From Glycocaulis profundi (GTDB taxonomy: Bacteria > Pseudomonadota > Alphaproteobacteria > Caulobacterales > Maricaulaceae): a stretch of DNA of 64,000 bases. A model generated the notes under the pieces. The model saw only the letters and a program-made list of their open reading frames with translations. It was not told the DNA's origin and did no database searches. The stretch is taken from assembly GCA_007050995.1 (NCBI GenBank), contig VJOU01000002.1, forward strand, positions 9,354-73,353. Direction: 5' to 3'. Both the position numbers and the translations under genes were made by a program. This document shows positions 41,165-60,963 of this stretch, one piece after another (within the stretch, counting starts at the first letter, position 1; each line of letters opens with the position of its first letter).

Positions 41165-41368
41165 CCTTTTTCAGCTTGCGCAGCGCTCCGCGCTGCGATG
41201 TTCCGCGCACGGGCGCGGGCGGCCGGTCGGCCTTGCGGGCGCCTCGCGCCCGTCACCCACGGGCTCCCGGCCCCGATCAGGGGCCGCAAGCGCGACCGCG
41301 CGTCCGGCCCGAGAGCTTTGGGGTTCTGGGCCGGAACCGACGCGACGGAGTTGCGGAGGACGGGGAGA
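41165..41368. repeat. Palindromic element P1
   Basis: Intergenic, full-length divergent copy. Contains GGCCG/CGGCC (41221-41232), the stem CGGGCGC-CTC-GCGCCCG (41236-41252), stem B GGCCCC/GGGGCC (41269-41285), linker GCAAGCGCGACCGCGCG (41286-41302) and stem C CCGGCCC/GGGCCGG (41304-41334). See the finding on the family. Confidence 0.65.
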
Positions 41369-41371
41369 AAA

Positions 41372-41392
41372 CCAGCGAACGGCGTTCGCTGG
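41372..41392 (+). repeat. Prophage motif, extended copy 5
   Basis: GCGAACGGCGTTCGC at 41375-41389 with arms lengthened by CCA/TGG on either side, so 9-bp arms around GGC. A partial direct repeat (CCGTTCGCTGGG) follows. Intergenic, just before the tail tube leader. Confidence 0.85.
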
Positions 41393-41406
41393 CCGTTCGC
41401 TGGGCA

Positions 41407-41955
41407 TCAGACGCGGCCGAGCGCGGCCTCGGCGGGCGTGGCGGCCCGGTGATCCGTCCCGGCCGTCAGGCCGAGGGTCTTGATCTTGGCATGGGACAGC
41501 ACCCGCACCCGACCAGCCTTGCCGAGACGTTCGTGGTCCTTGAGCAGGATGATCGCCGTAACGCCGCGGGCGGCAGGCGCGGCGGGCGCAGCATCGCCCT
41601 CGGCCTCCGAGGACTCGCTCTTGTCGGCGGCGGCCTCGGGACCCAGCGGCCACTCCGGCTCCGCATCCGCCGAGAACAGGTCGTCGCCGGCGTCCGGCTT
41701 GATCGCCTTGATCGCATCCTTGCGGGCGGTCGACAGGCGTCCGGAAATGTCCTCATCGCTGCGCGCGTTCCACGCCTTGACCGTGGTGTCACCGGACTGG
41801 GCGTAGGCGATGGCGAGGATGTTGGCCACCGTGGTGGCGGTGTCTTCATCCAGCGCGATGATCACCCCGCGGCCCCGGGACGGCTTCAGCGTGGCGGGGA
41901 GCTTGAGGTCTTCGACGCCCGTGTTGAGCAGGGCGGTGATGTCGTCGGTCTTCAT
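41407..41955 (-). CDS. Hypothetical tail-region protein
   Basis: A 182-aa protein between the tail terminator and tail tube genes. The first 100 residues look folded (GRGVIIALDEDTATTVANIL), followed by an acidic, Ala/Pro-rich linker and a C-terminal ARGVTAIILLKDHERLGKAG segment. No family recognised. Ribosome site AAAAGGAG precedes ATG. Confidence 0.6.
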   Translation of the reverse strand: MKTDDITALLNTGVEDLKLPATLKPSRGRGVIIALDEDTATTVANILAIAYAQSGDTTVKAWNARSDEDISGRLSTARKDAIKAIKPDAGDDLFSADAEPEWPLGPEAAADKSESSEAEGDAAPAAPAARGVTAIILLKDHERLGKAGRVRVLSHAKIKTLGLTAGTDHRAATPAEAALGRV

Positions 41956-41968
41956 GATTGGCTCCTTT

Positions 41969-42433
41969 TCAGCCGGTGGGTCTCAGACTCGAATAGAGGA
42001 CGGAGATCGCGCAGGCCGCGATCATCTCGGGCAACTGGCCTTCGGGCTTGTCGGTCTCGGGATTGGTGTCGGTGATGCGCGCATGGGCGGCGATGCCGCC
42101 CAGCGTCCAGTCCGCCTCGAGCACCGTCTGGGCGGTCTCGATCACGGCCTCGACAGCCTCATACCGGGCGGCGTCCTCGTAACCGACGGCATCGACCACC
42201 AGCACGAACTGGTGATCGCAGTCGTAAATCGTCTGGACGCCGCCAAGGAGGGCCTGCCCTTCAGGCCTGCGCCCGGTGATCAGCGCCACCTTGCGGCGGA
42301 TGCCCGCCTCCTCGTCGACATCGATCAGCCTCGGATCATCGACCACGAACTCCATGGATCCGGGCAGCGCCCCTATCGGGCCCTGCAGGGCGGCGATCAG
42401 CGCGGCGCGCACCGCCTTGTGCGTGGTGGTCAT
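41969..42433 (-). CDS. Tail terminator-like protein (gpU position)
   Basis: A 154-aa protein with the pattern of gpU/tail terminator proteins: helical start (TTHKAVRAALIAALQG), beta core (YDCDHQFVLVVDAVG), then a helix (RYEAVEAVIETAQTVLEADW) and final strands. It would cap the tail tube and join it to the head. Overlaps the previous gene by 4 bp. Confidence 0.65.
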   Translation of the reverse strand: MTTTHKAVRAALIAALQGPIGALPGSMEFVVDDPRLIDVDEEAGIRRKVALITGRRPEGQALLGGVQTIYDCDHQFVLVVDAVGYEDAARYEAVEAVIETAQTVLEADWTLGGIAAHARITDTNPETDKPEGQLPEMIAACAISVLYSSLRPTG

Positions 42434-43155
42434 GGCGCGCCCTCCGGACCGAAATTGCGTTCGATGACGTCCGCCAGGGCGCGCGCGAAACGCTCCAGAC
42501 CCTCCGCGCCGATGGCCCGCTCGATCTCGTCGCGGTCCAGCCTGCGCGGCATCTTCACGGCGGGCACGAGCACGAACAGCACCACGCTGTCCTCATAGTC
42601 CCGCCGCTTCAGCGCCGAAGCGCTCGCGGGCGCATAGCCGCCCCGCTTGCCGCGCCGGCGGCGCAGGCGGCGCGCCGTCAGCAGGGCCATGTTCTTGCCG
42701 GGCACCTTGATCAGGTTCAGCCGCCCGAACTGGCGCTCGGCCTGGACGATCAGATAGTTGCGGCCGCGGCGGATGCGCCCGTCGATCCCCACGACGCGCG
42801 CCCGCTTGGGCGCGTTCTCGGTCGGGATCACGAGCCACTTCGTGTCGCCGGCCCGGATGGTCAGCCCCTCCTCGAACGCCCGCACGATGTGCGGAGCCTT
42901 CGAAGACCAGCTGATGGTCGGCGAGACGGACGCAGCCGAGCCCCGGTCTGGGAAAATGCGCTCCCGGATCGTGTTGGCGACGCGATCCCCGAGACCCGCA
43001 TCGCGGACCTCGTTGCGCCACCGCTGCTTGCCCCAGTCCGCGACCGCATCCGCCGCCGCCATGGCGGCCTGTTCCAACTCGTCATAGGCGAGGCGGAAAT
43101 CCTCGCTGAGGGTTTCGGTGGCGCTGAAGTCCAGCCCGAACCCGTCCCCGCTCAT
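42430..43155 (-). CDS. DUF6441-like minor tail protein (gpZ position)
   Basis: A 241-aa protein resembling DUF6441/phage minor tail proteins: an N-terminal helical region (QAAMAAADAVADWGKQRWRNEV), SSKAPHIVRAFEEGLTIRAG, a very basic RRLRRRRGKRGG stretch, and FVLVPAVKMPRRLD. It occupies the lambda gpZ position and probably takes part in tail completion. Confidence 0.68.
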   Translation of the reverse strand: MSGDGFGLDFSATETLSEDFRLAYDELEQAAMAAADAVADWGKQRWRNEVRDAGLGDRVANTIRERIFPDRGSAASVSPTISWSSKAPHIVRAFEEGLTIRAGDTKWLVIPTENAPKRARVVGIDGRIRRGRNYLIVQAERQFGRLNLIKVPGKNMALLTARRLRRRRGKRGGYAPASASALKRRDYEDSVVLFVLVPAVKMPRRLDRDEIERAIGAEGLERFARALADVIERNFGPEGAP

Positions 43156-43505
43156 GCCGGAGTCAGCTCCAGGCCCCACTCCCCCGAATTGAGCGAGGCC
43201 GGAGCCTGCATGATCTTCAGGCGCGCGCCGGACGCCCGGTGAAACACCCCGCCCCTGACGGGCGGGACCGGCATCTCGATCTTCCAGACCGTCGCCATGA
43301 TGGATCCGGTCCGCGTCCGCCCCGCGCCGGGGATGCCGGTGTCCACCGATCCGTCGGCCTCGTCGACGATCACGGCGACCGGATCGGCCTCCGGGTCGAA
43401 CACTCCGCCGGGCGGAACATACCGCATGGGCTCCGCGAAGCCGGCGAGCCGGTCTGCGGCCCGCGCGGTGTCATCGAACAGCGCATCGAAGGATGATTTG
43501 TCCAT
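43152..43505 (-). CDS. Head-tail joining protein
   Basis: A 117-aa protein following the capsid gene, beginning MDKSSFDALFDDTARAAD and containing VIVDEADGSVD and MATVWKIEMP segments. Position and size fit head completion proteins of the lambda FII/GpZ neighbourhood (ATP-binding sugar transporter-like fold group). Overlaps the next gene. Confidence 0.62.
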   Translation of the reverse strand: MDKSSFDALFDDTARAADRLAGFAEPMRYVPPGGVFDPEADPVAVIVDEADGSVDTGIPGAGRTRTGSIMATVWKIEMPVPPVRGGVFHRASGARLKIMQAPASLNSGEWGLELTPA

Positions 43506-43593
43506 GCGACCCTCCCGGCTCTCGGAGCGGCCCCGCGCGCGAGGCGGCTGCGAAAACCGGCCCCGGCGCGTGGCCGGGACCGGGTTCGTGTCG

Positions 43594-43608
43594 GCGAACG
43601 GCGTTCGC
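43594..43608 (+). repeat. Prophage motif GCGAACGGCGTTCGC, copy 6
   Basis: Centre GGC, intergenic, directly adjoining the stop codon of the capsid gene (43609-43611). Confidence 0.85.
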
Positions 43609-44715
43609 CTACGGGTTCGGGTTCGCGCCCATGTCGCTTTCCACCAGCAGCTCAGGCCGCTTGCAGATGGCGATGTTGTTGCTCTCCGACCAGAGATCGA
43701 GACCCTTGTTGTGGTCGCGGATCTTGGCGCTCGCATACATGGCGAGAATACCCGCCGCCAGGGGCGAGCCCTCGGGCAGACTCGCGGCGGCGTCCAGCAG
43801 GGCGGGCGGGATGTTGACCTGCTCGAGCACGTCCGCGGGCGCGTGGCTGCACTCGAAGATCGGCTCGCTGACGCCGGTGGGGAGGGCGTGCCCCTTTCCC
43901 AGCTCCACGAAGGGCACGACGCCCGCACCCTTCAGCTTCACCTTGCCCTTGTATTCGATCAGGCGCAGCTGACCGATCGGGATGATGCGACCCCAGTTCC
44001 CGCCGCGCGTCTCCCGTTCCATCTCGCGGGCAAGGCCGACGCCCGACGAATAGTTGAGATACCACTGCTCGAACTTGGGATGCTTGATGAGCTTCTGCAC
44101 GAAGGCGGGCGAGGCGATCTGATCCACCCCCATGAAGCTGATGCCGTTCTTTTCGTCGCCGACGGCGTCGTAGACCTCTTCCGCCTTCTCCCAGGGATCC
44201 GTGTCGGGATTGTCGAGGTCCCAGTAGATCGTCCGCTGGGGCCGGTCGAAGTACTGATGCAGGTCGAGCAGGAGACGGCCCTTGCCGTCATAGATGCGCC
44301 CCTTGATCGCGCCCGTCAGGGTGTATTCCTGCGTCAGGTAGTGCGCACTGGCGAGGCGCAGCAGCTTCTTGGCGACAGCGCCATCCACGGATTCCGCGAC
44401 GCGTTCGCGGCCGAGAACCGCGAGGCGGTCCTGCACGTCGCGCGGCGTGACCGCATCCTCGACCGGGAAGTGGGGGACTTTGACGAAGCGGGTCGCGCCT
44501 TCCTCGCCGTCCATCTGCTGGGCGGGGCCGCCCCGCTCTTCAGCGGCCAGCACGGCGATGCCATCGGATTCCTCCCGGATCTCGACGACGGTGGAGCCGA
44601 TGCTTTCGTGGGTGAAATAGCCCAGCGCGTTGATCAGGCCGAACGTGTTCGGCACGCGGTTGACCTGCGTGGTCAGGGCCGTGGAGTTGTAAAGATTCCA
44701 GTCAATGCCTTCCAT
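43609..44715 (-). CDS. Major capsid protein (lambda E family)
   Basis: A 368-aa protein of the gpE family: WNLYNSTALTTQVNRVPN at the start, THESIGSTVVEIREE, the ITGAIKGRIYDGKG-type E-loop region (LTGAIKGRIYDGKGRLL) and EQWYLNYSSGVG are all family landmarks. It forms the icosahedral shell together with the decoration protein encoded just upstream. AAAGGA-type ribosome site before the ATG. Confidence 0.93.
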   Translation of the reverse strand: MEGIDWNLYNSTALTTQVNRVPNTFGLINALGYFTHESIGSTVVEIREESDGIAVLAAEERGGPAQQMDGEEGATRFVKVPHFPVEDAVTPRDVQDRLAVLGRERVAESVDGAVAKKLLRLASAHYLTQEYTLTGAIKGRIYDGKGRLLLDLHQYFDRPQRTIYWDLDNPDTDPWEKAEEVYDAVGDEKNGISFMGVDQIASPAFVQKLIKHPKFEQWYLNYSSGVGLAREMERETRGGNWGRIIPIGQLRLIEYKGKVKLKGAGVVPFVELGKGHALPTGVSEPIFECSHAPADVLEQVNIPPALLDAAASLPEGSPLAAGILAMYASAKIRDHNKGLDLWSESNNIAICKRPELLVESDMGANPNP

Positions 44716-44799
44716 GGCGACGGGTCCTTTCAGGTGGGCGGCCCCTCCGGCCGCGTGATGGGGATGGGAGGCGCCGCCGCGGGGGCGGAGGTCCCGGCC

Positions 44800-45465
44800 T
44801 TACGAGTTGGCGGAATCCAGCACGAGGATGCCGCGCGCCATCAGCTCGGCGTCGATGGCCGCGATCTGCGCGGGGCTCGCGTTTTCGGGGTAGGTCATCT
44901 TCGTCCGGACCAGCTTGGACGGTCCGCGGACATGGACGAGCACGCGCCCGTCGCTCGCTTCGCCCGCCTCGGCCTCGGCATAGGAGACGCCTGCGGGCCG
45001 CCCCCCCAGAGACAGGGGGATGAAGCGGGCGTTCTCGCGGTCCTCGGCCGCGGCGATGACGAAGCCGTCGCCGGCCTCGAACGCCGCCCCCGAGGCCGTG
45101 ATCGTGAACGCGATCTGGGCGGTGTCGTACGGCTCGCCCACGGTCGCGTCGGCGAGGCGGACGCCGCCCGGCGCGAAGACGGCGAAGACGTCCTCGTCGA
45201 TGCACTCGAGGGTGTATTCGCCGGAGACGGTCGCTGCGCGGGCCTCGATGTCCTCGATCGAGCCCCCGCCCGTGTTGCCGGCATTGGCGTCCGCCGCCAG
45301 CACGAAGAGCCCCGCCAGGGCCATCACGGTGCCGAGCGCGACCCGTCCGGAGCCCATCGCCAGGCGGCCGGACACGTTGCAGTAGGTGGGATCATACACG
45401 TGCTTGAACACGTCGGTTTCACGCATGGGGGCACGCACGATACCCCCGGCCTGAGAGCCATACAT
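44800..45465 (-). CDS. Head decoration protein (gpD-like)
   Basis: A 221-aa head decoration protein: N-terminal MYGSQAGGIVRAPMRETDVF, then GSGRVALGTVMALAG and GAAFEAGDGFVIAA, matching the decoration family that stabilises capsids next to gpE. Longer than lambda gpD (about 110 aa), mainly due to an extra C-terminal region ending LVRTKMTYPENASPAQIAAI. AAAAGGAG before the ATG. Confidence 0.82.
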   Translation of the reverse strand: MYGSQAGGIVRAPMRETDVFKHVYDPTYCNVSGRLAMGSGRVALGTVMALAGLFVLAADANAGNTGGGSIEDIEARAATVSGEYTLECIDEDVFAVFAPGGVRLADATVGEPYDTAQIAFTITASGAAFEAGDGFVIAAAEDRENARFIPLSLGGRPAGVSYAEAEAGEASDGRVLVHVRGPSKLVRTKMTYPENASPAQIAAIDAELMARGILVLDSANS

Positions 45466-45484
45466 GGCAGTCTCCTTTTAAGTC

Positions 45485-45575
45485 ATGCGCCCGCAGGCGC
45501 TATGGTCCGCGCGCGGGGCGCGGGCGGCCGGACGGCCTTGCGGACGCTGACGCGTCCAGGATGGGCGGCTGCGAA
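45485..45575. repeat. Palindromic element P2
   Basis: Short intergenic copy between protease and decoration genes. It has GGCCG-GA-CGGCC (45526-45537) and GGACGC-TGAC-GCGTCC (45542-45557). Compared with P1 the stem has G-to-A on one arm and C-to-T on the other, so pairing is kept. Confidence 0.65.
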
Positions 45576-45582
45576 CGGGGCC

Positions 45583-46182
45583 TCAGAAGCCGGGCTTGCG
45601 GGCGGTCCGGGCGATCTCGCGATCGACGGCCCCGCTCAGCCCCTTCATGCGATCCGCCTGGGGATCGTCCGACCGGGGCTTGCGGGCGCTGAGCCCCTTG
45701 CGGCCTTTGGCCATCGCAGCCTCGAGCGGAGAGCCCTCGCGGCCGGCGGCGCGCAGGGTGCGCATCGCGGACCGGTAGCTGGTCTCGCCCGCGGCCACGT
45801 CGGCGGCGAGCTGGCCGCCCAGCTTGGGCTTGCCCTGGTCGGCGGCGATGCGGGCGATCTTGCGGCCCGCGGCGGCCTTGGACTTCGGCTCGTCGTCCTC
45901 TTCCGCCTCATCATCATCGTCGTCTTCGGACGCGGTCTCGTCGTCCTCATCCGCCGCAGAGTTCTCGTCGTCTTCCTCGGCTTCAGGCTCGTCGTCCTCT
46001 TCTTCCGCCTCTTCCTCTTCGTCGTCTTCGGAGGCGGTGTCCTCTTCCTCACGCTCGGCGCGGGCACGGCCCTTCTTCGGCATCGCGACGGGGATGCCCA
46101 TCGACGCCAGACGCTTGGCGGCCTTCTTGTCGCCGCGCGAGGCTTTCGCCCGCAGGGCCGCGATTTCGGCTTCTGCGCTCAT
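45583..46182 (-). CDS. Nested scaffold protein (Nu3-like)
   Basis: In-frame internal start at ATG 46182 (MSAEAEIAALRAKASRG), preceded on the minus strand by AAAAAAGGAGACTGAC, a stronger ribosome site than most starts here. The product would be 199 aa: helix, acidic run, basic C-terminus. Lambda Nu3 is expressed the same way inside gene C. Expression is inferred from the ribosome site. Confidence 0.7.
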   Translation of the reverse strand: MSAEAEIAALRAKASRGDKKAAKRLASMGIPVAMPKKGRARAEREEEDTASEDDEEEEAEEEDDEPEAEEDDENSAADEDDETASEDDDDDEAEEDDEPKSKAAAGRKIARIAADQGKPKLGGQLAADVAAGETSYRSAMRTLRAAGREGSPLEAAMAKGRKGLSARKPRSDDPQADRMKGLSGAVDREIARTARKPGF

Positions 46183-47223
46183 GTCAGTCTCCTTTTTTCC
46201 GGCCGCGGGTTCATCGCCGGAAGCGGGGCGGCCGGTCGGGCCTCCGGCGGACATGGCGGCCAGCGCGCGTGCGGCCTCCAGAGCTTCGGATTCAGTGAGG
46301 ACCCCGTCGATCAGGCCCGCGGCCTCGGGGTCGAGATCGCCCGTCGCGCCCGCCACGAAGCAGCGCGCCTCCCACGACCTGACAGCGTCGGCGGAAAGAC
46401 CCCGTCCGGCGGCCACCCCGTCGAAGAAGAACTCCGCGTGCGCGTCGATCTCGGACTGGAAGAGCGCCCGCTCCTCGTCGGTCACGGGCCGGTATCCGGA
46501 CCCCGCGTCCTTCAGGCGGCCGCTGACGAACTCCTCGCGCTTCACGCCGTCCTGCTCGAGCATCGCGGACAGTTCGAAAAAGCCCATGCGCACGCCGATG
46601 GAGCCCATGCCGGCGCCGCGCTGCGCGTAGGAGGCGTCGCAGGACGCGGCGATCCACTGGGCCGCGCTGTAGGCCATCTCGCAGAAGGCGACGATGGGCT
46701 TGCCGCCCTCCCGCGCCGACAGGGCGCGGATCTCCGCGCAGAGCTGGTCGCAGCCCGAGACGAGACCTCCGGGGCTGTCGATGATGAGGACGGTGGCGTC
46801 GACGCGATCATCATGTCGCGCGGCGGCCAGGGCCGCGGCGATGTCGGCATAGCCTGGCACCCAGCGCTCATCCCACCAGTCGTAGTAACCCTTCGGCGCG
46901 AGGGCGCCGTCGACCACGACGATGGCGATGTCATCGACGATCCAGTACCCGCCGCTCCCGGCCTGGACCCAGTTGGATCCCGCGGCGGCCGAGGCCTCCG
47001 GCGCGTCGGGACGGCCCGCCGCAACCCGGGCGGCGACGCCCCGCACCCGGTCGATCAGGCCCGGCGTGGTCTCGGCGTCGAGACGCCATGCGGGCAGGTC
47101 GGAGAAGCGCTGCAGGGCCGAGGCCTCATGGGAGGCGTGGATGGCCAGCAGGACGGCGCCCGCCGTGGCCATGAGCGTGGAGCGGGCGTGCGGAGACGCC
47201 CCGCGGAAGCGAGGTCGGGACAT
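45583..47223 (-). CDS. S49 capsid protease with C-terminal scaffold
   Basis: A 546-aa fusion as in lambda gpC/Nu3. Residues 1-330 are an S49 (SppA-type) peptidase: LIIDSPGG, the nucleophile Ser in EMAYSAAQW, and GMGSIGVRMG. Residues about 347-546 form an acidic scaffold with a long Glu/Asp run (residues 385-450) and a basic C-terminus. An internal in-frame start with its own ribosome site produces the scaffold alone (see next entry). It should assemble and then process the procapsid. Confidence 0.88.
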   Translation of the reverse strand: MSRPRFRGASPHARSTLMATAGAVLLAIHASHEASALQRFSDLPAWRLDAETTPGLIDRVRGVAARVAAGRPDAPEASAAAGSNWVQAGSGGYWIVDDIAIVVVDGALAPKGYYDWWDERWVPGYADIAAALAAARHDDRVDATVLIIDSPGGLVSGCDQLCAEIRALSAREGGKPIVAFCEMAYSAAQWIAASCDASYAQRGAGMGSIGVRMGFFELSAMLEQDGVKREEFVSGRLKDAGSGYRPVTDEERALFQSEIDAHAEFFFDGVAAGRGLSADAVRSWEARCFVAGATGDLDPEAAGLIDGVLTESEALEAARALAAMSAGGPTGRPASGDEPAAGKKETDMSAEAEIAALRAKASRGDKKAAKRLASMGIPVAMPKKGRARAEREEEDTASEDDEEEEAEEEDDEPEAEEDDENSAADEDDETASEDDDDDEAEEDDEPKSKAAAGRKIARIAADQGKPKLGGQLAADVAAGETSYRSAMRTLRAAGREGSPLEAAMAKGRKGLSARKPRSDDPQADRMKGLSGAVDREIARTARKPGF

Positions 47224-47238
47224 GCGGGGACTCCGGGT

Positions 47239-49142: not shown

Positions 49143-49161
49143 GGCGGCCCTCCGTGGTCGA

Positions 49162-49174
49162 CGAACGGCGTTCG
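49162..49174 (+). repeat. Prophage motif CGAACGGCGTTCG, copy 7
   Basis: Centre GGC, intergenic, about 20 bp upstream of the gpW-like start codon (minus strand). Last copy with the GGC centre; those further right read GCC. Confidence 0.85.
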
Positions 49175-49335
49175 CCGGTGAATGCGTGCCGGGCTTCCCG
49201 CCATTCACGGCTTGCTCGCGCCCCGGAGAGCGACGGCCGGGGCCGTGTTGACCTTGCGGCATGGCGGGCGTGATAGCGTTTAGGGGAGCGCAGCCTGCCT
49301 GCCCGGCATGGGCCCAGGCCAGATCTCCCGGCCGT

Positions 49336-49494: not shown

Positions 49495-49504
49495 GGTCGT
49501 GTCC

Positions 49505-51628: not shown

Positions 51629-52367
51629 GGGCGGGCTTCTGGACCTGCGCGCGCTCCTCCTTCAGCGCCGCCCGGCCTTCCGCGATGAACTCGGCGAGGA
51701 TCTCCCGGAGGGCGGCCTCGATCGCGCTGCGGGCGCGGGCGGGGTCTTCAGGGTTCGCCTTGTCGGCCGCCGCGCGGGGGATGCGCATGATCGCCTTGCG
51801 CAGCTCGGCCATCCGGGCGGCCTCGCGCTGCCTCGCGAGGTCGGCGGGCACGAGCATGCCGATCTGCTCCTGCCACTCCCGCTCCTCCTGGAAGCGCTTG
51901 AGCCTCTGGATGCGCGCCTTGTCCTCGGCCACCGACACCTGCAGCGGGTCGCGCGGATCCAAGGCGGGCTCGTCGGCGGAGTCATCCTCGTTGGGTGCGA
52001 CTGCAGGCGCGGCGGGCCGGGGCGCGGCGGTTGGGCTGTCGCGCCCCTCCTGGGCGGGGAACAGGTCCGCCGCGACGCCGCCGGACTTTCCAACGGCAAG
52101 CGGCGCGGCGGGGGCCGCGAGCGCGGGCGTGTCGCGCTTCAGCGGGTTCTGGTGGTCATGGCGGGCGCGGTCGCTGGCGGCCACGTCCACGAGCTTCGTG
52201 CCGGTGGCCGGGCACCGCACCCAGACGATCAGCCCGGCGTCGTTCCAGTTCTTCGCCGTCTGGCGGCTCTTGCCCAGGGCGGTGGCGTACTGGCCTGCGA
52301 ACTTCACGTAGGCGGCGCGGCCGTCGGAGAGCGCGGGGGCGTCGAGCAGCGGGAACGCATCGGTCAT
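51621..52367 (-). CDS. Terminase small subunit
   Basis: A 248-aa protein that overlaps the large-subunit start by 8 bp. Residues 15-60 form a winged-helix-like DNA-binding domain (YVKFAGQYATALGKSRQTAKNW, described by VKFAGQ and GKSRQTAKNWNDAGL), resembling Nu1-type small subunits; a linker is followed by a helical C-terminus (EEREWQEQIGMLVPADLAR) that would contact the large subunit. Position makes the assignment firm. Confidence 0.8.
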   Translation of the reverse strand: MTDAFPLLDAPALSDGRAAYVKFAGQYATALGKSRQTAKNWNDAGLIVWVRCPATGTKLVDVAASDRARHDHQNPLKRDTPALAAPAAPLAVGKSGGVAADLFPAQEGRDSPTAAPRPAAPAVAPNEDDSADEPALDPRDPLQVSVAEDKARIQRLKRFQEEREWQEQIGMLVPADLARQREAARMAELRKAIMRIPRAAADKANPEDPARARSAIEAALREILAEFIAEGRAALKEERAQVQKPAHA

Positions 52368-53321: not shown

Positions 53322-54310
53322 CGCCGCACCTCGCATTGCTCGTGTTCGGCGCGGATCGTCTCCACGCCCAGTTCCGTCAGCAGCCCGCCGAACCGCTCCC
53401 ACAGGCCCCAGGCCGTGGACCGCGTCGGCGCGATCAGCCGCCCGTCCGCCACCCGGCAGCGGACGAAGTGATCCCGCCACGCGTCCGGTCCGGCCCGCGC
53501 CTTGATGAAATCCCGGAACCGCTCCGGGGTCAGGGACGGCTCAGGCGCGCCATCGCCTGCGCCCCCGTCCGCCCTCGCCGAGCCCTCGCGGACGTCGCCG
53601 CCGCCATCGGCCTCTGCGCTCTGGCGAACGCCGTTCGCGCCATCGCCATGCCCCTCGCCCCCGTCCTCGCCGGAACGGCCAGGGCCGGACGCGCAGCGCC
53701 CGTCAGGGTCTGCGCAGGCCGGACGGCCGGGCTCGCCGCCGGATAAGGGGGAAGGGGGTTTATCGTTAGAATCAGTCGTTACTGCTGTCGCCGCAGCGCG
53801 GACACCCGGTGTCCGCGAGCTGGCGGACTCCCCGGTGTCCGCGTTTGAAGACACCATGGTGTCCGCGTTCGCGGACTCCCCCGGTGTCCGCGTTTGCGGA
53901 CACCCCTCCCCATCCGGAAGGTGCGCGGTGGAGCCCCAGGACCGCTTCTTAAGCGTCTGTCGCTGCGCCCGGAATTCGCTCAGCGTGATGGCGGGCGGCG
54001 TCCCCGGCTCGCGTTCGCCCTGATAGTCGGTCAGCACCTTGTAGCGGCATGGCTTGTCATCGCCCGCCTCACGGTCGACCAGCACCCAGCCGAGCCATTC
54101 CAGCACCGCCACGGCGTCATTCACCCGCTGCCTGCGGAAGCCGCAGCGCTTGGCCAGCACCTCCTGCTTGGTCCCTCTGGGCGTCCAGCCGCGCTTGTCC
54201 GTGAACGAGCCGATGGCGTTCAGGATGCGCAGGTCTGAATCCTTCATCAGCCCGGCGATCACGTCCTCGATCGCGCCGGCGGGGATGATGGAATAGCGCG
54301 GACCGCTCAT
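53318..54310 (-). CDS. Replication initiator-like winged-helix protein
   Basis: A 330-aa protein. The N-terminal about 95 residues form a winged helix (LMKDSDLRILNAIGSF, TKQEVLAKRCGFRRQRVNDAV, LEWLGWVLVDREA), as in phage replication proteins. A low-complexity linker (residues 130-255) is encoded by the iteron DNA, and the C-terminal domain (ERFRDFIKARAGPDAWRDHF) is short and folded. Organisation resembles lambda gpO: DNA-binding N-terminus, iterons inside the gene, C-terminus for helicase recruitment. Confidence 0.7.
   Translation of the reverse strand: MSGPRYSIIPAGAIEDVIAGLMKDSDLRILNAIGSFTDKRGWTPRGTKQEVLAKRCGFRRQRVNDAVAVLEWLGWVLVDREAGDDKPCRYKVLTDYQGEREPGTPPAITLSEFRAQRQTLKKRSWGSTAHLPDGEGCPQTRTPGESANADTMVSSNADTGESASSRTPGVRAAATAVTTDSNDKPPSPLSGGEPGRPACADPDGRCASGPGRSGEDGGEGHGDGANGVRQSAEADGGGDVREGSARADGGAGDGAPEPSLTPERFRDFIKARAGPDAWRDHFVRCRVADGRLIAPTRSTAWGLWERFGGLLTELGVETIRAEHEQCEVRR
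53624..53638 (-). repeat. Prophage motif, copy 8 (reversed)
   Basis: GCGAACGCCGTTCGC on the plus strand, that is the same motif read on the minus strand. Inside the initiator-like gene, about 170 bp from the iterons; first copy with reversed polarity. Confidence 0.85.
53797..53904. repeat. Iteron array, candidate replication origin
   Basis: GGTGTCCGCG occurs at 53808, 53834, 53858 and 53883 (spacing 26, 24, 25 bp). Most copies are the right half of a dyad: 10-bp arms around one base at 53797-53817, GACACCATGGTGTC at 53850-53863, and 9-bp arms with a GTTT loop at 53883-53904. An AT-richer stretch (53758-53790) adjoins. Such an array in an initiator gene is the lambda origin layout. Confidence 0.7.
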
Positions 54311-54398
54311 GGGGCCTCCGTTGGGTCGGGGGTGGTCTTTTCAGGCGAAATAAGCGCCCGCAGGGCGCACGTATTGGCTTGCGCCGCCGGGCCCGGCT

Positions 54399-54413
54399 CG
54401 CTAGGGGCTAGCG
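54399..54413. promoter_or_regulatory. Inverted repeat before the 95-aa plus-strand gene
   Basis: CGCTAG-GGG-CTAGCG, a perfect 6-bp inverted repeat a few bases before the ribosome site; either an operator or a leader hairpin. Confidence 0.4.
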
Positions 54414-54429
54414 CACAGGAGAAAGCGCG

Positions 54430-54717
54430 ATGGACGACACGCCCGGCGAAGCCGTTGAAGAATGCCGCAGGGCCCTCGAAACCCTGCTGTTCCACGGGGC
54501 CGACATCGCCCAGACCGTCCTCGGCCGGGGCGGTCGTCCCGGCACGATCGTCCTCGCGCTTCACGACGCGGACGATGCCCTCCTCGAGGCCCTCGACGAG
54601 GCCACCAGGAGCGCATGGCGCGACGCCCTCGAAGAGGCGTTGAGCCGCCTTTCCCCGTCGGATCGGAAGATCGCGGAGGCCGATCTGGCGGCGCGGAAGG
54701 CCGAGGGAAACGACTGA
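54430..54717 (+). CDS. Plus-strand small hypothetical protein
   Basis: A 95-aa acidic helical protein (AVEECRRALETLLFHGADIA ... TRSAWRDALEEALSRLSPSD). CAGGAGAAAG precedes the ATG. It runs against the early operon, between two minus-strand genes with no overlap, so it occupies its own transcription unit. It does not carry the CAACCCAGAGG leader of the other plus-strand genes. No family recognised. Confidence 0.6.
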   Translation: MDDTPGEAVEECRRALETLLFHGADIAQTVLGRGGRPGTIVLALHDADDALLEALDEATRSAWRDALEEALSRLSPSDRKIAEADLAARKAEGND

Positions 54718-54722
54718 CGCCA

Positions 54723-55067
54723 TCACCCCCTCCCCGCCAGCTCGGCCCGCCAGCGCGCGAACTCGCGCACGCCGTCCCAGGCCTTCACCTGCCGCTCATA
54801 GACGGGCATCAGGTCGGGGACCGGCCTGCCCTCGGCATCGAGCACGGGCCGCCCGTCCGCGGTCCTCAGGGGCCGTCGCTGGGGCTCGCCGATGAACGTC
54901 ACGCAGCCATAAGGATTGATGCCACGCCGGATCAGGGCGGCGTCCGTCTCCAGCACGGCGGCGTCCACGGCCTGCAGCCAGCTTTCGCCCAGGCTGTTGC
55001 GGGTCACCGTGAAGGTCCGCACGGCGGCGGGGATGTCGGGAGCCGGAGCCCAGTCAGGGGCCTTCAT
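54723..55067 (-). CDS. Hypothetical early protein
   Basis: A 114-aa protein (VRTFTVTRNSLGESWLQAVD ... INPYGCVTFIGEPQRRPL). Start overlaps the helicase stop by 4 bp. The GCVTFIGEP segment is compatible with a small single-strand binding or regulatory protein, but no family is recognised. Confidence 0.55.
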   Translation of the reverse strand: MKAPDWAPAPDIPAAVRTFTVTRNSLGESWLQAVDAAVLETDAALIRRGINPYGCVTFIGEPQRRPLRTADGRPVLDAEGRPVPDLMPVYERQVKAWDGVREFARWRAELAGRG

Positions 55068-56857
55068 GACACCCCTCCCGGCCCCTCGGGCCGCGTCATC
55101 GCGATCACGTTGGAGGGCCGGTTCAGATAGCTGTCCACCAGCGCCTGGACGCGGCTGCCGTCATCGACCGCCACCGCGTGCGCGCCCAGCCCGGGATCGA
55201 GGATCGCGCTCTGCTCGGCCGATTTCAGGCCGTTGACCTCCATCATGGGCGGGTCGGAGCCGTCCGTGGCGACGGGGAAGAAGGCGGCCACGTGGTCGGC
55301 GATCTGGCCTTCCCGGCCCAGCCGCCCGATGAACTGCTTGTGGGTGGCGGGGCTCCAGTCCAGCTCGCCGATGACGGCGGTGTTGGACGCCGCCTGCAGG
55401 CCGTCCAGCCCCTTGCCGGACCGCAGGCTCATGAACATCGCGTCCACCTCGCCCGCGATGAACGCGGCGGCGGCCTCCGCCTTCCGTTTCGGCGTCTCGG
55501 TCCCGGTGTAGAGGCGGCAGCGGCGGTGGCTCAGATGCGCGCGCCAGATGTCATAGACATCCCGGTGCCAGCCCGCGACCAGCACCGGCCCGCGCGTCTC
55601 GATCAGCATGTCGATGAACCGCGCCACGAAGGGGGCCTTGGCCACGCCGGTCGCGTGCCGCACCCGCAGGTCCAGCTCCCGCACCGCCTGCCCGCGCTCG
55701 TGGAAGGCGCCGCTGCGCGCGGTCTCGGCCAGCGCGACGGCGACGTCCGCGATGGAGTCCAGCGCCTCCATGTCGTGATCCACATGGACCACGCTGACAT
55801 CGATCCGCACGTCCTCGCCCGAGCGGCGGACCAGCGCGAAGCGGTCGGCGAGGAAGTCGCCCAGAGCCCGCGGATCGTCCACATGCCCGTCCGGCGCCCA
55901 TTCGCGCAGGAAGTCCTCACGCCCGCCCAGCACCTCGGGGCGGAGATAGGACATGATCGTCCACATCTCGACGCCCCAGTTGTACATCGGCGTGGCGTCC
56001 AGCCCTATCTTGCGGCGCGCCCGCTCGGCCAGCTCCCAGCAGGCCCGGCCCTTCACCGTGCTCCGCCCGTGCCGCAGCTCGCTGACCTCGTCGAAGCAGA
56101 CCAGCCCGACATCCATCTCGGTCAGGACGTCGACCCACCCCGCCACGTTCGAGTAGCGGAAGACGTAGACATCCGCCTCAGGCAGGTCGTAGGGCGTCGT
56201 CACGCCGATCTCGTGGGCCCGCAACGTGGTGAAACGCTCCGTGACGGTCACCCACTGCCCCGACAGGTGGGGCGGCGCGACCACGATCAGGGGCAGATTG
56301 CCCTCGGTCAGGGCCGCGGCCAGCGTGGTGTAGGTCTTCCCCGCGCCGACCTTGTCCGCGATCAGCAGGCCGTCGAACCGGTTCAGAATCTCGACCGCCT
56401 GCGCCTGGAAGGGGCGCACGGCCTGCCCCGGCTGCAGCCCGGCGAAGTCCGGCGGCGTCCAGTCCGGCGCGAACACCCGGCCCAGCTCCGCCCGCACCCG
56501 CGCTACGCTGTCCCGGCCCGCGATCAGCTCGCTCTCGACGCTCAGCGAGCAGTCGAACGGATAGCGCTGGCGGAACCACAGCAGGTCCGCGCAGATCTCG
56601 GGCCCGGCGTCGAACCGGAACGGGCCGGTCGAAGCCTTGTCGATATGGGGGAAGATCGCCTTCAGCTTGATCTTCACATGCGCCGGCGCGCCGTCCAGCA
56701 CGAACCCGCCCTCGACCCGCTCCAGCCGCCCATAGCAGACCCGCCGCGCGCCAGCAGTATCGGGATCGGACCCGTCCGGGTCCGCAAGCGCGACCGCGCG
56801 CCCGGCCTCGTGGCCGGAACCGCAGGCCGGAGGCCGAGGACCAGAAGACTCCGTCAC
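55064..56857 (-). CDS. SNF2-type DEAD/DEAH helicase
   Basis: A 597-aa superfamily 2 ATPase. Motif I is IADKVGAGKTYT (Lys174), motif II CFDEVSEL, motif III LDATPMYN, and motif VI FIGRLGREGQ; the order and spacing fit SNF2/RapA-like phage helicases. It starts with GTG 56857, overlapping the nuclease stop. Residues about 5-34 are encoded by a palindromic element, so the native start of the ancestral protein was probably near residue 38. Likely works in phage replication or recombination with the neighbouring nuclease. Confidence 0.85.
   Translation of the reverse strand: MTESSGPRPPACGSGHEAGRAVALADPDGSDPDTAGARRVCYGRLERVEGGFVLDGAPAHVKIKLKAIFPHIDKASTGPFRFDAGPEICADLLWFRQRYPFDCSLSVESELIAGRDSVARVRAELGRVFAPDWTPPDFAGLQPGQAVRPFQAQAVEILNRFDGLLIADKVGAGKTYTTLAAALTEGNLPLIVVAPPHLSGQWVTVTERFTTLRAHEIGVTTPYDLPEADVYVFRYSNVAGWVDVLTEMDVGLVCFDEVSELRHGRSTVKGRACWELAERARRKIGLDATPMYNWGVEMWTIMSYLRPEVLGGREDFLREWAPDGHVDDPRALGDFLADRFALVRRSGEDVRIDVSVVHVDHDMEALDSIADVAVALAETARSGAFHERGQAVRELDLRVRHATGVAKAPFVARFIDMLIETRGPVLVAGWHRDVYDIWRAHLSHRRCRLYTGTETPKRKAEAAAAFIAGEVDAMFMSLRSGKGLDGLQAASNTAVIGELDWSPATHKQFIGRLGREGQIADHVAAFFPVATDGSDPPMMEVNGLKSAEQSAILDPGLGAHAVAVDDGSRVQALVDSYLNRPSNVIAMTRPEGPGGVS
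56755..56850. repeat. Palindromic element P3 (in coding sequence)
   Basis: Stem B GGACCC/GGGTCC (56768-56783), linker GCAAGCGCGACCGCGCG (56784-56800) and stem C CCGGCC-TCGT-GGCCGG (56802-56817). It encodes an extra N-terminal segment of the SNF2 helicase that includes GRAVALADPD. Confidence 0.65.
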
Positions 56858-57240
56858 ACCCACGCCTCCCCGAGGCTGAATGTCCGCACCGGGCGGCCGT
56901 CGATGTCGGGCGGCATGGCGATGGCCGTGGCGCTGACCAGCAGCAGCCCGTCCAGTCTCCCGCTGGCCAGATAGCGGATGCACTGGCGGCGCACGGCCAT
57001 CTTCGCGCGGGTCCGCGCCTTGACCTCGATGCCGATTTCGACCCCGCCGCGACAGACCGTCAGATCGATCAGCCCCGACGTGCCGAGCCGGACCTCGCGC
57101 GCGACCGCCAGCTGGGCCGCCGCCAGCACGCCGAACATCTCCGCCTGCAGGCGCTTCTCATCGCTCAGGTCGAACCGCCAGCCGCGCAGGGCCGCCGTCA
57201 CGGCGTTCATCGTCATGATCGCACCCGCCGCCCGGCTCAT
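56854..57240 (-). CDS. PD-(D/E)XK nuclease-like protein
   Basis: A 128-aa protein with a compact restriction-endonuclease-like core: a helix with Glu (DEKRLQAEMFGVL), Asp in TSGLIDLTV and the IEVKA motif (Glu-X-Lys), then helices. VRR-NUC/RecB-type single-domain nucleases look like this. The gene directly precedes the SNF2 helicase with overlap, a pairing known from phages as a helicase-nuclease couple. Confidence 0.75.
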   Translation of the reverse strand: MSRAAGAIMTMNAVTAALRGWRFDLSDEKRLQAEMFGVLAAAQLAVAREVRLGTSGLIDLTVCRGGVEIGIEVKARTRAKMAVRRQCIRYLASGRLDGLLLVSATAIAMPPDIDGRPVRTFSLGEAWV

Positions 57241-57533
57241 GACGCCGCTCCCGCCGCGCGCTCCGCGGCCTCGAGCCGGGCCTGCATGGCGAAGGCGCGC
57301 CAGCCGGTCCAGCCCGTGCGCGCGGCCATCGCGTCCGCGTCGAACGGCCCCTCGACCAGCGACAGCGGATCCTCGCCGCGCGCCCCCAGCCTGACGGTCC
57401 AGAACGCGCCGCACGGCGTCATCAGCGCCAGCGGCCCGCCCTGCATTCCGATCAGGCGGCGGGCGAAGGCGGGCCAGGCCGCGTTCGCCGCCTCCCAGGC
57501 CAGCGTCTCGGCAGGGGTCAGAGGCCTCAGCAC
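57237..57533 (-). CDS. Hypothetical early protein
   Basis: A 98-aa protein (LTPAETLAWEAANAAWPAFA ... LGARGEDPLSLVEGPFDADA) with no recognised family. Overlaps both neighbours by a few bases, so it is firmly part of the operon. Confidence 0.55.
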   Translation of the reverse strand: MLRPLTPAETLAWEAANAAWPAFARRLIGMQGGPLALMTPCGAFWTVRLGARGEDPLSLVEGPFDADAMAARTGWTGWRAFAMQARLEAAERAAGAAS

Positions 57534-57988
57534 GACACCCGGCCCCTCAGCCGCGCGTCCGGCATCTCCCGCTCGATCATGGCCAGCGCCGCCGTCCGGG
57601 CCATGCCCGCGGCGGTCAGGCGGTCGAGCCGTTCGAGGGCGCGCTCCAGCGCGGGGCTGCCCTCAGGCGCGGGCGGATCAGCCTCCCGTGACCGGATGAA
57701 GCGATTGCCCGCCATCGAGCGGCAGCTCTCGGAGGTCCGGCCGAGAATGTCCCCTATGTCCGCATAGGTGAGGCCCTCGGCGCGCAGCGCCTCCAGACGG
57801 GCGATCTCATCATCCGTCCATGTGCTGCGCGGCTCCTGGGTGGTCAGCCCCAGCTTGCTCAGCTTCGCGCTGACCGCGCCTTTGGGGCGGTCCAGCTCCC
57901 TCGCGCAGGCGCTCACGCTCAGACCCTGCGCGACCCGCAGCCGCCGCAGGCGGTCCTCTTCGGCTTTCGACCAGCGTCCCGCCTTCAT
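57527..57988 (-). CDS. Tandem helix-turn-helix (Myb/GcrA-like) protein
   Basis: A 153-aa protein with two similar DNA-binding repeats: residues 5-50 (WSKAEEDRLRRLR ... ACARELDRPKGAVSAKLSKL) and 58-100 (WTDDEIARLEALRAEG ... DIGDILGRTSESCRS). Both have the spaced Trp/acidic start and helix-turn-helix of SANT/GcrA-type domains. It likely regulates phage genes or resembles host GcrA, a cell-cycle regulator in this class. The C-terminal 50 residues are helical. Confidence 0.68.
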   Translation of the reverse strand: MKAGRWSKAEEDRLRRLRVAQGLSVSACARELDRPKGAVSAKLSKLGLTTQEPRSTWTDDEIARLEALRAEGLTYADIGDILGRTSESCRSMAGNRFIRSREADPPAPEGSPALERALERLDRLTAAGMARTAALAMIEREMPDARLRGRVSC

Positions 57989-58830
57989 GCCGCGCGCTCC
58001 GCGGGGCAGCGGCGCAGCAGGTCCTCGAGCAGAATCGCCGAGGCAGGCCGGTTCTGAAACCGGGCCATCGACCGCGCGGCATCCGACAGCCCCTCCAGAT
58101 CGCAGTCCTGCAGCACGCCCGCGAGGGCCTCGCTCTCCATGTCAGGACGGGCGAGGCCGAGCGCCAGCACGGTGCTGATCTGACGGCCCGCGAGGGCCTG
58201 GGGCCATTCAGGATAGGCCGCCCTGAGCGCCTCCAGCGTCCGGCGCACCGGGCGTTCGCCGTGCTGCTTGAGGGCGTCCCGGATCGTCTTGACCGCCATG
58301 GTCTCGTCGGGGCGTATGCGCTTCTGGGATTTGGGGTAGCGCGGCAGCATCACTCCCGCTGCTTCACACACGCGGGCGGTGAAAAGCGCGTCCGGATCCT
58401 CCGCCGCCACTCCGGCGTGATGCAGCTGCAGCGGAGTGACCTGCGTGACATCGGCATTGATCGCCATGAAGGCGCGGGCCTGCCCCTTCAGATCCAGCCG
58501 GTGGAGATAGGCGGGCACCGCTTCCACGCGGGGATGGAGGGTCGCAGCCATCGCCCTGTGCTGACCGTCCAGGATCGCGAACCTATCCTTCAGGCCGTCA
58601 GCGGGCGCGATCATGAGCGGATCGAACCGCGCCCACGAGAAATGCTCGGTGATGGTGCGGACGTTCTTCCTGCCCGACGCGTTCACCAGCCGCTGATAGC
58701 GCGTATCCACGACCAGCCGTTCCAGAGGGACCCAGACCAGCTCGCCCCGGTCGCCGGCGTCATCGCTCGGATCGATCGGCGTCTTGAACTCAGGCGGCGC
58801 AAGCGGCCGGAACACTTCGCCCGGCATCAC
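57985..58830 (-). CDS. ParB-like nuclease-domain protein
   Basis: A 281-aa protein with a ParB/sulfiredoxin-like N-terminal domain: VPLERLVVDTRYQRL, FDPLMIAPADGLKDRFAILD and DGQHRAMAA (the ParB GERR-like box replaced by GQHR). Phage homologues of this sort are annotated as DUF6551/ParB-like. It might bind or regulate DNA, and is a candidate reader of the prophage-wide palindrome. Start GTG 58830 or ATG 58827 overlaps the previous stop. Confidence 0.75.
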   Translation of the reverse strand: MMPGEVFRPLAPPEFKTPIDPSDDAGDRGELVWVPLERLVVDTRYQRLVNASGRKNVRTITEHFSWARFDPLMIAPADGLKDRFAILDGQHRAMAATLHPRVEAVPAYLHRLDLKGQARAFMAINADVTQVTPLQLHHAGVAAEDPDALFTARVCEAAGVMLPRYPKSQKRIRPDETMAVKTIRDALKQHGERPVRRTLEALRAAYPEWPQALAGRQISTVLALGLARPDMESEALAGVLQDCDLEGLSDAARSMARFQNRPASAILLEDLLRRCPAERAA

Positions 58831-59354
58831 GCACCCCCTTCCGCGGAGAGGCGGGCTGCGGCGTCCATCTCGAAGGCGGCGAGATCGTCACCGCTCCACG
58901 GCCCGTTCGGGATGCAGAAATGGGTGACGTCGTGTTCAGCCAGGACGCGGCGGTGGAACGTGTCGTGGCACATGCACCAGTCGGCGACGACCCAGCCCTC
59001 GTCGTCCTGCCAGAACCCGTCGGCGATGCCGAGCGGGTTCTTGTCTCCGTCGATCAGAACGGGAGACGCCAGCAGGAGCGGCTGATGGTATCTGTCCGCC
59101 AGCTCCGAAATCGGCCGCCACCGCATCGGCGCGGATTCTGCTTTGCGCAGCGCGGCATGACCCTGATCGGAGATGGCTTTGAGGCCCTGCCAGTATTCGT
59201 CGAGTCCGCTGGTCTGACGCTGCTCGATTTCCTGATCAATCTCGGCGAGGGCTGCACGCGCGAAAGTCAGCAGAACTGGGTCAGATTCGAGAGCGTCCAG
59301 CTGCTCGCCCATGCTCGGACCGCTCGGGACGCAGATGTCATGCTCAGCCATCAC
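58827..59354 (-). CDS. Hypothetical early protein
   Basis: A 175-aa protein with an acidic N-terminal helix region and a C-terminal domain rich in Trp, His and Cys (FWQDDEGWVVADWCMCHDTFH). The pattern MRWRPISELADRY with PLLLASPVLIDGDK resembles small phage proteins of unknown role often called DUF551-like. Start ATG 59351 or GTG 59354. Confidence 0.58.
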   Translation of the reverse strand: MMAEHDICVPSGPSMGEQLDALESDPVLLTFARAALAEIDQEIEQRQTSGLDEYWQGLKAISDQGHAALRKAESAPMRWRPISELADRYHQPLLLASPVLIDGDKNPLGIADGFWQDDEGWVVADWCMCHDTFHRRVLAEHDVTHFCIPNGPWSGDDLAAFEMDAAARLSAEGGA

Positions 59355-59725
59355 GCGCCCCCGAACAGATCGTGGGTGGCGGTGTCGCGCGGGGTCGCGG
59401 CCCGGCGCTCGATCTCATCGCAGGCCGCGGAAAATCCCGTCCCCTGCGCCTGCCGGACATAGGCGATCACGTCGCCCGCCGCGCCGCAGGACCGGCACAG
59501 ATAATGGCTCAGATCGAGGCTCACCCGCGCCTTGGCCGCGCAGCCCGAGGCCGGGCAGGCGATATGCCCGCCCTCCCCCGCGCCCTTCGGGGACCGCACG
59601 AACGCCGCGCCCAGCCACCCGGCGACACGGGCGAGATCGGTCCGCTCCTTGATCGCCGCGGCCCGCGAACGCCGTTCGCCGGACATGCGTGCGGCTTCGT
59701 CTTCAAACAGGGTGTCACGACGCAT
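59351..59725 (-). CDS. CHC2 zinc-finger protein (primase-like)
   Basis: A 124-aa protein containing a CHC2-type zinc finger (CPASGC ... YLCRSCGAAGDVIAYV), the DNA-binding module at the front of DnaG-like primases. The polymerase (TOPRIM) part is missing, so the gene makes only the template-recognition module; a separate catalytic subunit is not seen. AGAGGAG precedes the ATG. Confidence 0.78.
   Translation of the reverse strand: MRRDTLFEDEAARMSGERRSRAAAIKERTDLARVAGWLGAAFVRSPKGAGEGGHIACPASGCAAKARVSLDLSHYLCRSCGAAGDVIAYVRQAQGTGFSAACDEIERRAATPRDTATHDLFGGA
59665..59679 (-). repeat. Prophage motif, copy 9 (reversed)
   Basis: GCGAACGCCGTTCGC on the plus strand, inside the CHC2 gene. Confidence 0.85.
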
Positions 59726-59814
59726 CGGCGAAGCTCCTCTAAAGGCAGATCAGAAGGACGAGCGCACAGACCCAGACCGGCCCGGCGTGAGCGATGGTGG
59801 GATGAAGATCACGC

Positions 59815-59906
59815 CCCCGGCCCGCCGCCCGGACGCGCAGCGTCACCAGCGCGAACGCGCGCCCGCAGCGAAGCGAGGAACCGACCGAGCGGATGCGAGG
59901 GAGGAC
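59815..59906. repeat. Palindromic element P4 (right half)
   Basis: Intergenic partial copy: stem B GACGC-GCA-GCGTC (59832-59844), linker ACCAGCGCGAACGCGCGCCC from 59845, and the right terminal repeat at 59880-59906. The left half is missing. The 186-bp gap around it (59726-59911) holds no convincing gene. Confidence 0.6.
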
Positions 59907-59911
59907 AAGCA

Positions 59912-60298
59912 CTACCGATCCCCCGGCGGGAGGCCCGCCTGCGCCGCGAACAGGTCCGCCTGCCGAGCCAGGCGCTGACGCTTGGCCTCGCTGGCGATCT
60001 GGCGGACGGCGGTGATCAGGCTGCTCAGCGGCCCTTCCAGCCGGGCGCGCTCCTCGGGTTCGTTGCGGGCGGCCCACGCCTCGGCCAGCGTGGTCAGCGT
60101 CCGCCACAGCAGCGGATCGGGGCAGTCCGCCCCCTGCGTGTCGGGCTTGAGCGCCGCCGCCATGTGTCGGCGGGCGAGCACCGCGCCGCGGCCGTCATCG
60201 GACCGCAGAGCGCGCTCCATCTCGATCACGCCCAGCATCCAGGGCGGGAAGGGTCCGGTGACGGGCGGAGCGTCGGCGAGAGCGGGCATGGTTGTCAC
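59912..60298 (-). CDS. Hypothetical early protein
   Basis: A 128-aa mostly helical protein (PPWMLGVIEMERALRSDDGR ... SSLITAVRQIASEAKRQRLA). Its start overlaps the stop of the CII-like gene (ATGA). No family recognised; conserved position in the early operon suggests regulation or replication. Confidence 0.55.
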   Translation of the reverse strand: MTTMPALADAPPVTGPFPPWMLGVIEMERALRSDDGRGAVLARRHMAAALKPDTQGADCPDPLLWRTLTTLAEAWAARNEPEERARLEGPLSSLITAVRQIASEAKRQRLARQADLFAAQAGLPPGDR

Positions 60299-60963
60299 CG
60301 TCCTCCCTCGCTCCGCTCGGTCGGTTCCGCGCCACGAGGCGCGACGGCCGGTCGGCCTTGCGGGCGCTCCGCGCCCGATACCCCTGCCCCCTCGTCCGCG
60401 TCAGCGGACACCAGCGCGACGGCGCGCCCGCAGCGAAGCGAGGACCGACCGAGCGGAGGCGAGGGAGGACAGGGAGAAGAAACCGCGGGCCCATGCTCGG
60501 GGAAAGCCCGCACCAGCGCGGCCTCTTCCGCGGCAAGCGCGGCGATGGCCTCGCGGATCTCCTTGAGGACGCCCGGCGCTTCGGCCCGGTCGATGCGGCC
60601 GCCATGAGACAGGGCCTCGGCGATGGCCGCGACGGCCTCGCCCGCCTCCTTCATGGCGGCGTAATCCGCGCCGCTCGCGTCCACGACCTCCGGTCCGGGC
60701 ACGAGGATCCAGCCCTGCATGCGCGCGAGGACCTCGGTGATGTAGGGCCGCTCGGCGCCGCTCTCGGCGTCCGCGATCACGTCGGCCGGAATGAAGCTCT
60801 CATGGCTGTGCCGCTGCCAGTTGCGCAGCGACTCCCCCACCCCGCGCGTCTCCCGCGCGAAGGCCTCGGCGGAGCCGTTGTCCCGGATCGCGCGGGCGGT
60901 CGCGGCCTTGAGCGCGCGATAGTCCGCGTCCGACCGGATGCGGCTGGCGGGGGTCCGGCTCAT
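60295..60963 (-). CDS. CII (CP76)-like phage regulatory protein
   Basis: A 222-aa protein. The N-terminal half (YRALKAATARAIRDNGSAEA, GVGESLRNWQRHSHESFIPA, DVIADAESGAERPYITEVLA) resembles CP76-type CII regulators. The C-terminal part from about residue 165 is the translation of palindromic element P5 (GRAVALVSAD ... ERPQGRPAV ... TERSEGGR) and is probably disordered. It starts right after the preceding gene with a TGATG overlap. Confidence 0.62.
   Translation of the reverse strand: MSRTPASRIRSDADYRALKAATARAIRDNGSAEAFARETRGVGESLRNWQRHSHESFIPADVIADAESGAERPYITEVLARMQGWILVPGPEVVDASGADYAAMKEAGEAVAAIAEALSHGGRIDRAEAPGVLKEIREAIAALAAEEAALVRAFPEHGPAVSSPCPPSPPLGRSSLRCGRAVALVSADADEGAGVSGAERPQGRPAVAPRGAEPTERSEGGR
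60299..60470. repeat. Palindromic element P5 (most complete copy)
   Basis: About 172 bp with imperfect terminal inverted repeats of about 27 bp (60299-60326 and 60443-60470). Inside: GGCCG/CGGCC (60346-60357), CGGGCGC-TCC-GCGCCCG (60361-60377), stem B GTCCGC-GTCA-GCGGAC (60394-60409) and linker ACCAGCGCGACGGCGCGCCC (60410-60429). It forms the C-terminal coding part of the CII-like gene. Confidence 0.7.

Follow-up and report, generated by a model that had tools for sequence, protein, structure and literature searches.

Five palindromic places lie within a 64,000-nucleotide stretch of the Glycocaulis profundi genome (C2:9354-73353; hereafter the window, in a genome that we call the home genome), and they raise the question of whether they are copies of a single element and, if so, what keeps their variable stems paired. 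Using a covariance model of 38 positions that comprises the core and stem III, we recovered all five places and resolved them into seven units of one short dispersed repeat (E-values of 6e-15 to 6.5e-6; scores of 53 to 24.7 bits). The next match below these units, at 52161 (24.4 bits), has no recognizable layout and was taken as noise. The linker pattern CAAGCGCGACCGCGCGYCCGG matches four times in the window against 0.09 matches expected. In P1 and in P5, two inverted units face each other tail to tail, and P2, P3, and P4 are single units. The model-matched spans are 41215-41252 (plus) and 41268-41307 (minus) in P1, 45520-45558 (plus) in P2, 56767-56805 (minus) in P3, 59832-59866 (minus) in P4, and 60341-60377 (plus) and 60393-60431 (minus) in P5. 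The full units and their parts are as follows.

41179-41252, plus strand: P1 forward unit, with stem I CGCAGCGC/GCGCTGCG at 41179-41197
41203-41218, plus strand: stem II of the P1 forward unit, CCGCGC/GCGCGG
41221-41232, plus strand: core of the P1 forward unit, GGCC-GGTC-GGCC
41236-41252, plus strand: stem III of the P1 forward unit, CGGGCGC/GCGCCCG
41268-41372, minus strand: P1 reverse unit, core GCGC-GGTC-GCGC, stem III GGCCCC/GGGGCC
45481-45558, plus strand: P2 unit, core GGCC-GGAC-GGCC, stem III GGACGC/GCGTCC
56767-56853, minus strand: P3 unit, core GCGC-GGTC-GCGC, stem III CGGACCC/GGGTCCG
59832-59911, minus strand: P4 unit, core GCGC-GTTC-GCGC, stem III GACGC/GCGTC
60299-60377, plus strand: P5 forward unit
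60393-60479, minus strand: P5 reverse unit, stem III GTCCGC/GCGGAC

Read with the core forward, the 5' half of a unit consists of a T-rich start, stem I, TCCTC, stem II, and GCGGGC, and the 3' half of the core stem, TTG, and stem III, with the outer CGG/CCG pairs invariant. The arms of the core stem are GGCC, GGGC, GCGC, or GCCC and enclose a GGTC loop or a close variant of it. TCCTC precedes the first stem in the home genus, Glycocaulis, while the stem I loop of Sphingomonadales copies is NTCC. Linkers and loops are constant, and the stems vary in sequence and still pair. What had been described separately as a stem B and a GGGCGC stem correspond to stem III of the reverse and of the forward units, respectively.

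Within the window, the T-rich 5' end of the P1 forward unit, read on the opposite strand, forms the ribosome-binding site of the tail-tube gene. The 5' end of the P1 reverse unit is preceded by a terminator-like hairpin with a T tract, located downstream of the stop (41407) of the upstream minus-strand gene. P2 sits between the stop of an S49 protease gene and the ribosome-binding site of a decoration-protein gene. Both P3 and P4 are located immediately 3' of an upstream minus-strand ORF and in the same sense (TGA at 56854-56856 and TAG at 59912-59914, respectively), P3 lying upstream of the conserved helicase start. On the minus strand, the 5' end of the P5 forward unit reads GGAGGA, a possible Shine-Dalgarno candidate upstream of the next ATG, and the P5 reverse unit has the sense of a CII-like gene whose frame enters it without a stop codon.

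The covariance-model search that the original prediction had proposed as a check found many further copies, and its claim of compensatory stems was borne out by paired changes well above chance in three kinds of comparison. Stems I and III lay outside the search pattern with which these copies were collected, which used the core alone. A perfect stem III of at least 4 bp was present in 54% of 151 copies, compared with 4% after shuffling and 6% after arms were swapped between copies, and occurred as 28 arm types; across all copies, such a stem was directly followed by CCG in 131 of 139 cases. Stem I was perfect over at least 6 bp in 68% of 132 copies, as opposed to 4% of shuffled ones, with 67 different arms. 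A single orthologous site provided the third comparison, in which a unit lies directly 3' of the stop codon of ctrA, identified from its C-terminal sequence. Among the seven Erythrobacter-type species with an aligned unit there, 15 of 32 pairs had changed on both sides, a number reached by none of 500 shuffles, and 23 double-changed cells stood against one one-sided cell (some unpaired cells are alignment gaps). The 100% pairing in alignment A1 is illustrative only and is not independent evidence, because A1 was picked for perfect stems. Finally, L093 and L125, two loci whose flanks are 86-91% identical, lie upstream of one gene (probably nadC) and have stems I and III in common, yet their stem II is of different types, which points to the exchange of whole stems between copies.

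Compensatory stem change is usually regarded as proving a functional RNA, and the units might be structured 3' UTR signals, acting in mRNA stability, in ribosome release, or as small RNAs, and selected for RNA pairing. Pairing at the RNA level would predict frequent G-U and rare A-C pairs. Among about 2,838 stem pairs, we counted 10 G-T and 19 A-C pairs, with A-T making up about 10%; because the stem search penalizes every mismatch, the absolute G-T share is lowered, and only the ratio of G-T to A-C is unbiased. Unlike the stems, 17 tRNAs from the same loci had G-T at 19 of 354 pairs (the tRNA finder draws no A-C pairs). A strand bias in stem I (A-C above G-T) that appeared in a loose count was not significant under a stricter one. 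Because G-U is nearly absent and no commoner than A-C, we read the pairing as one that seems to be kept at the DNA level, the two arms of a stem changing jointly. Palindrome-perfecting template switching, which we infer from the absent intermediates, and module exchange probably maintain it. That template switching creates and maintains hairpins has been proposed (PMC8794818).

The position of the units relative to genes, counted with a simple gene finder over the fetched loci only, bears on both interpretations. In 88 of 126 Sphingomonadales cases (p 1e-5) and in 22 of 27 in the home genome (p 0.0015), the gene 5' of the unit is oriented toward it, while viral contigs display no such bias (15 vs 16). 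From stop codon to core, the median distance in Sphingomonadales is 74 nt, about the length of the unit's 5' half, and the 5' end of the unit often adjoins the stop codon of a gene in the same sense, or the T tract of its terminator. This frequent sense placement right after a stop codon favors an RNA signal, as does a separate terminator-like hairpin downstream of the ctrA unit in several species, so that the unit there would be in the mRNA. Most copies are intergenic, and they are often paired tail to tail. Their occurrence in both orientations, including upstream of start codons, speaks against an RNA signal in 3' UTRs. At three loci (L013, L015, and L026) the minus strand gives GGAGGA or a similar motif shortly before a start codon. 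The last of these, just beyond the window (C2:78427-78724 of the home genome), holds two units immediately upstream of a gene that, judged from its N-terminal sequence, probably encodes a serine recombinase.

Comparison of orthologous sites provides a second view of the same question, since a single site, for instance the 3' end of ctrA, can reveal whether units are present, decayed, or replaced. Four unit sites of the home genome (between rsmD and mutL, a second intergenic site, behind thiG, and behind sdhB; gene names are from sequence and not database-tested) hold no unit in any congener in which the site was read. Several congeners among G001-G005 (L275-L292) have, at intergenic positions that this element occupies in the home genome, CGTC-type REP pairs or CCTCGTCCTTCGAGACGCT-type repeats instead, as though different families of repeats were competing for one location. 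At a tRNA-Ala site in Erythrobacter-type genomes, we found five full units, one short unit, and six empty sites, the empty ones having a run of at least three T right after or overlapping the stop codon. Two genomes with near-identical upstream flanks at this site (L329 and L333) carry units of different type, and therefore units have been replaced in place. At the ctrA site, two species have no unit, another has a half-deleted one, and in one copy (L367) the core loop holds a nested insertion with its own hairpin. Filled, empty, decayed, and replaced states all occur among three Erythrobacter sites. No target-site duplication could be read cleanly at empty sites, where the flanks are too diverged. 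Linkers are conserved at orthologous copies while flanks diverge; conservation this strong could indicate a host function, and it counts in favor of selected RNA signals. The absence of the unit from many orthologous sites argues in the opposite direction, and the units have no match in Rfam at either gathering or E-value thresholds. Weighing this together with the scarcity of G-U, we consider selection for RNA pairing an unlikely account of the units.

We favor instead, with rather more confidence than doubt, the view that the units represent a multi-hairpin DNA repeat of the REP/BIME/MITE type, dispersed and non-autonomous, whose stems are re-made as palindromes. In the mechanism that we envisage, a trans-acting factor would recognize the linkers and loops, probably in single-stranded DNA or in extruded hairpins, and would direct units to gene 3' ends, which tolerate them. 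The stems, being free in sequence, would be restored to exact palindromes when replication switches template within a hairpin, and whole stem modules would be swapped between copies; as a consequence of both processes, the two arms of a stem would change together. With strong two-sided changes at orthologous sites that come almost without G-U intermediates, the family offers a natural test case for distinguishing RNA selection from DNA template switching.

The family extends well beyond the window. The home genome contains 75 model hits at E <=0.01, 69 BLAST matches to P1, and 35 matches to the 18-nt core with at most two mismatches, as compared with 4 for a reversed control. Each of the five further home-genus genomes searched contains the core; it is absent from all 19 genomes of other genera in the home family, and elsewhere in the home order it has two stray matches with one mismatch each. 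The exact 22-mer core occurs in at least 111 stretches of other genomes; among the matches listed, the named genomes belong nearly all to Erythrobacteraceae/Sphingomonadales, plus Microvirga. A class-wide model search of 385 genomes gave hits at E <1e-8 not only in the home genome but also in representatives of several other families. Weak hits around E 1e-4 mostly resemble coding sequence and are probably due to chance. Exceptions are diverged but clearly related units with identical linkers in other alphaproteobacterial families (L222, L225, and L237), where stem III is longer, up to about 16 bp. In Croceibacterium xixiisoli (L083, L159, and L177), units form clusters of up to eight in about 2.3 kb. 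A plasmid collection searched with an Erythrobacter-type unit gave no match.

Phages also carry the family, as 32 viral stretches matched a 20-mer, the home prophage among them. This prophage, which corresponds to a viral-contig record, maps from about 23.3 kb in the window to past the window's end, and its 45.6 kb hold 8 of the 75 genome hits where 0.94 would be expected (p 7e-6, slightly inflated by dimers); units are enriched in it. Two other palindromes were observed in this region. One, GCGAACGGCGTTCGC, recurs at prophage gene junctions (41372-41403, 43596-43612, 49160-49180, 59664-59676, and 61184-61210) and in one place forms a terminator-like hairpin with a T tract; the other, GGTGTCCGCGTTTGCGGACACC, is present as three tandem palindromic copies of 24-25 bp at 53830-53904. 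A wider reading of the distribution is that the units belong to a broad undescribed superfamily in several alphaproteobacterial orders and their phages, recognized by structure and constant loops alone, put right behind stop codons by an enzyme, and with stems renewed as perfect DNA palindromes through template switching. We advance this only tentatively.

We found no mobilizing protein accompanying the units. Long insertions at two sites (L347-L350 and L352) were considered as autonomous copies and rejected, since they hold ordinary genes with no flanking unit in the parts read. Mobilization of the units as REPs or BIMEs by a RAYT (Y1, HUH) transposase would be consistent with palindromes arranged in inverted dimers and with their high copy number and extragenic, mosaic character. 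Yet no Y1/RAYT transposase accompanies the units: Y1_Tnp occurs in none of six home-genus members and in three of 30 named element-bearing genomes. Moreover, GTAG REPs are marked by a hairpin whose foot bears the tetranucleotide GTAG (Di Nocera 2013, PMC3733652), and this foot is absent from the linker consensus of the units. A RAYT origin is accordingly improbable. The family also offers a search target for a new mobilizing enzyme.

Two further interpretations fare worse. Strong hairpins and a 3' position would suit intrinsic terminators of the ordinary kind or GC-rich palindromes that arose by chance, but the T tract is on the wrong side of the hairpins, constant linkers are common to several orders, and the linker, core, and stem III counts given above exclude chance; we consider this pair of explanations very improbable. 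Least credible of all is that the units are protein-coding palindromes resembling Rickettsia palindromic elements, given that most copies are intergenic, variable stem lengths shift the frame, and frames are open by composition. The original prediction of copies open in one reading frame was accurate but trivial, because shuffled copies, at a GC content of 74%, likewise have about 70-85% of their frames open; the majority of window copies are open in at least four. Its GRAVAL peptide is what one frame of the constant core GGGCGCGCGGTCGCGCTTG spells. The proposed N-terminal extension of an SNF2 helicase by P3 reflects an over-long ORF: P3 is not part of the helicase, since the beginning of the closest phage homologue coincides with the end of P3, although Arthrobacter phage matches begin earlier, at residue 36. 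P5 alone fits the coding view, as an apparent C-terminal extension. It probably adds about 57 residues to the CII-like protein, because a 37%-identical homologue ends where P5 begins; against phages the CII-like protein had no match. The inverted ends that gave P5 its likeness to a MITE are explained by its two opposed units.

In the literature that we searched, which included few subscription papers and no bioRxiv preprints, no description of this repeat was found, and the family appears to be undescribed. Closest in habit are the GTAG and CGTC REPs, which like the units are short extragenic palindromes present in high copy and in dimers (PMC3733652). These have one hairpin with a GTAG or CGTC tag and a CCA tail, whereas the units have three to four hairpins and the linkers TCCTC, GCGGGC, and TTGCGG. 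CGTC REPs, common in Alphaproteobacteria, apparently without a dedicated transposase and with heterogeneous stems, are described as having a CGTC tag, a single 8-9 bp stem, and a CCA tail (PMC3733652), and this published description sets the units apart from them. The CIRs of Caulobacter and Brucella are also intergenic alphaproteobacterial repeats, of about 110 bp with two arms and a linker, but carry GANTC (PMC2229807), which is absent from P1, P2, P4, and P5 and occurs once in P3, outside the core. Rickettsia palindromic elements share with the units a palindromic structure, an alphaproteobacterial host, a length of about 100-150 bp, and occasional gene read-through (PMC2229807); the units differ in sequence and layout and do not lie inside conserved ORFs. 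The MRSC-65-2 motif, a proposed selfish element, is likewise multi-copy and covarying, but it forms a single long stem with UYCCGG (PMC11109978) in place of several short stems with other constant motifs. Template-switch hairpins (PMC8794818) represent a process that can change both arms together rather than an element family, and this process may act on the units. With BIMEs, finally, the units share a mosaic character, being dispersed composites of short palindromes in alternating orientation.
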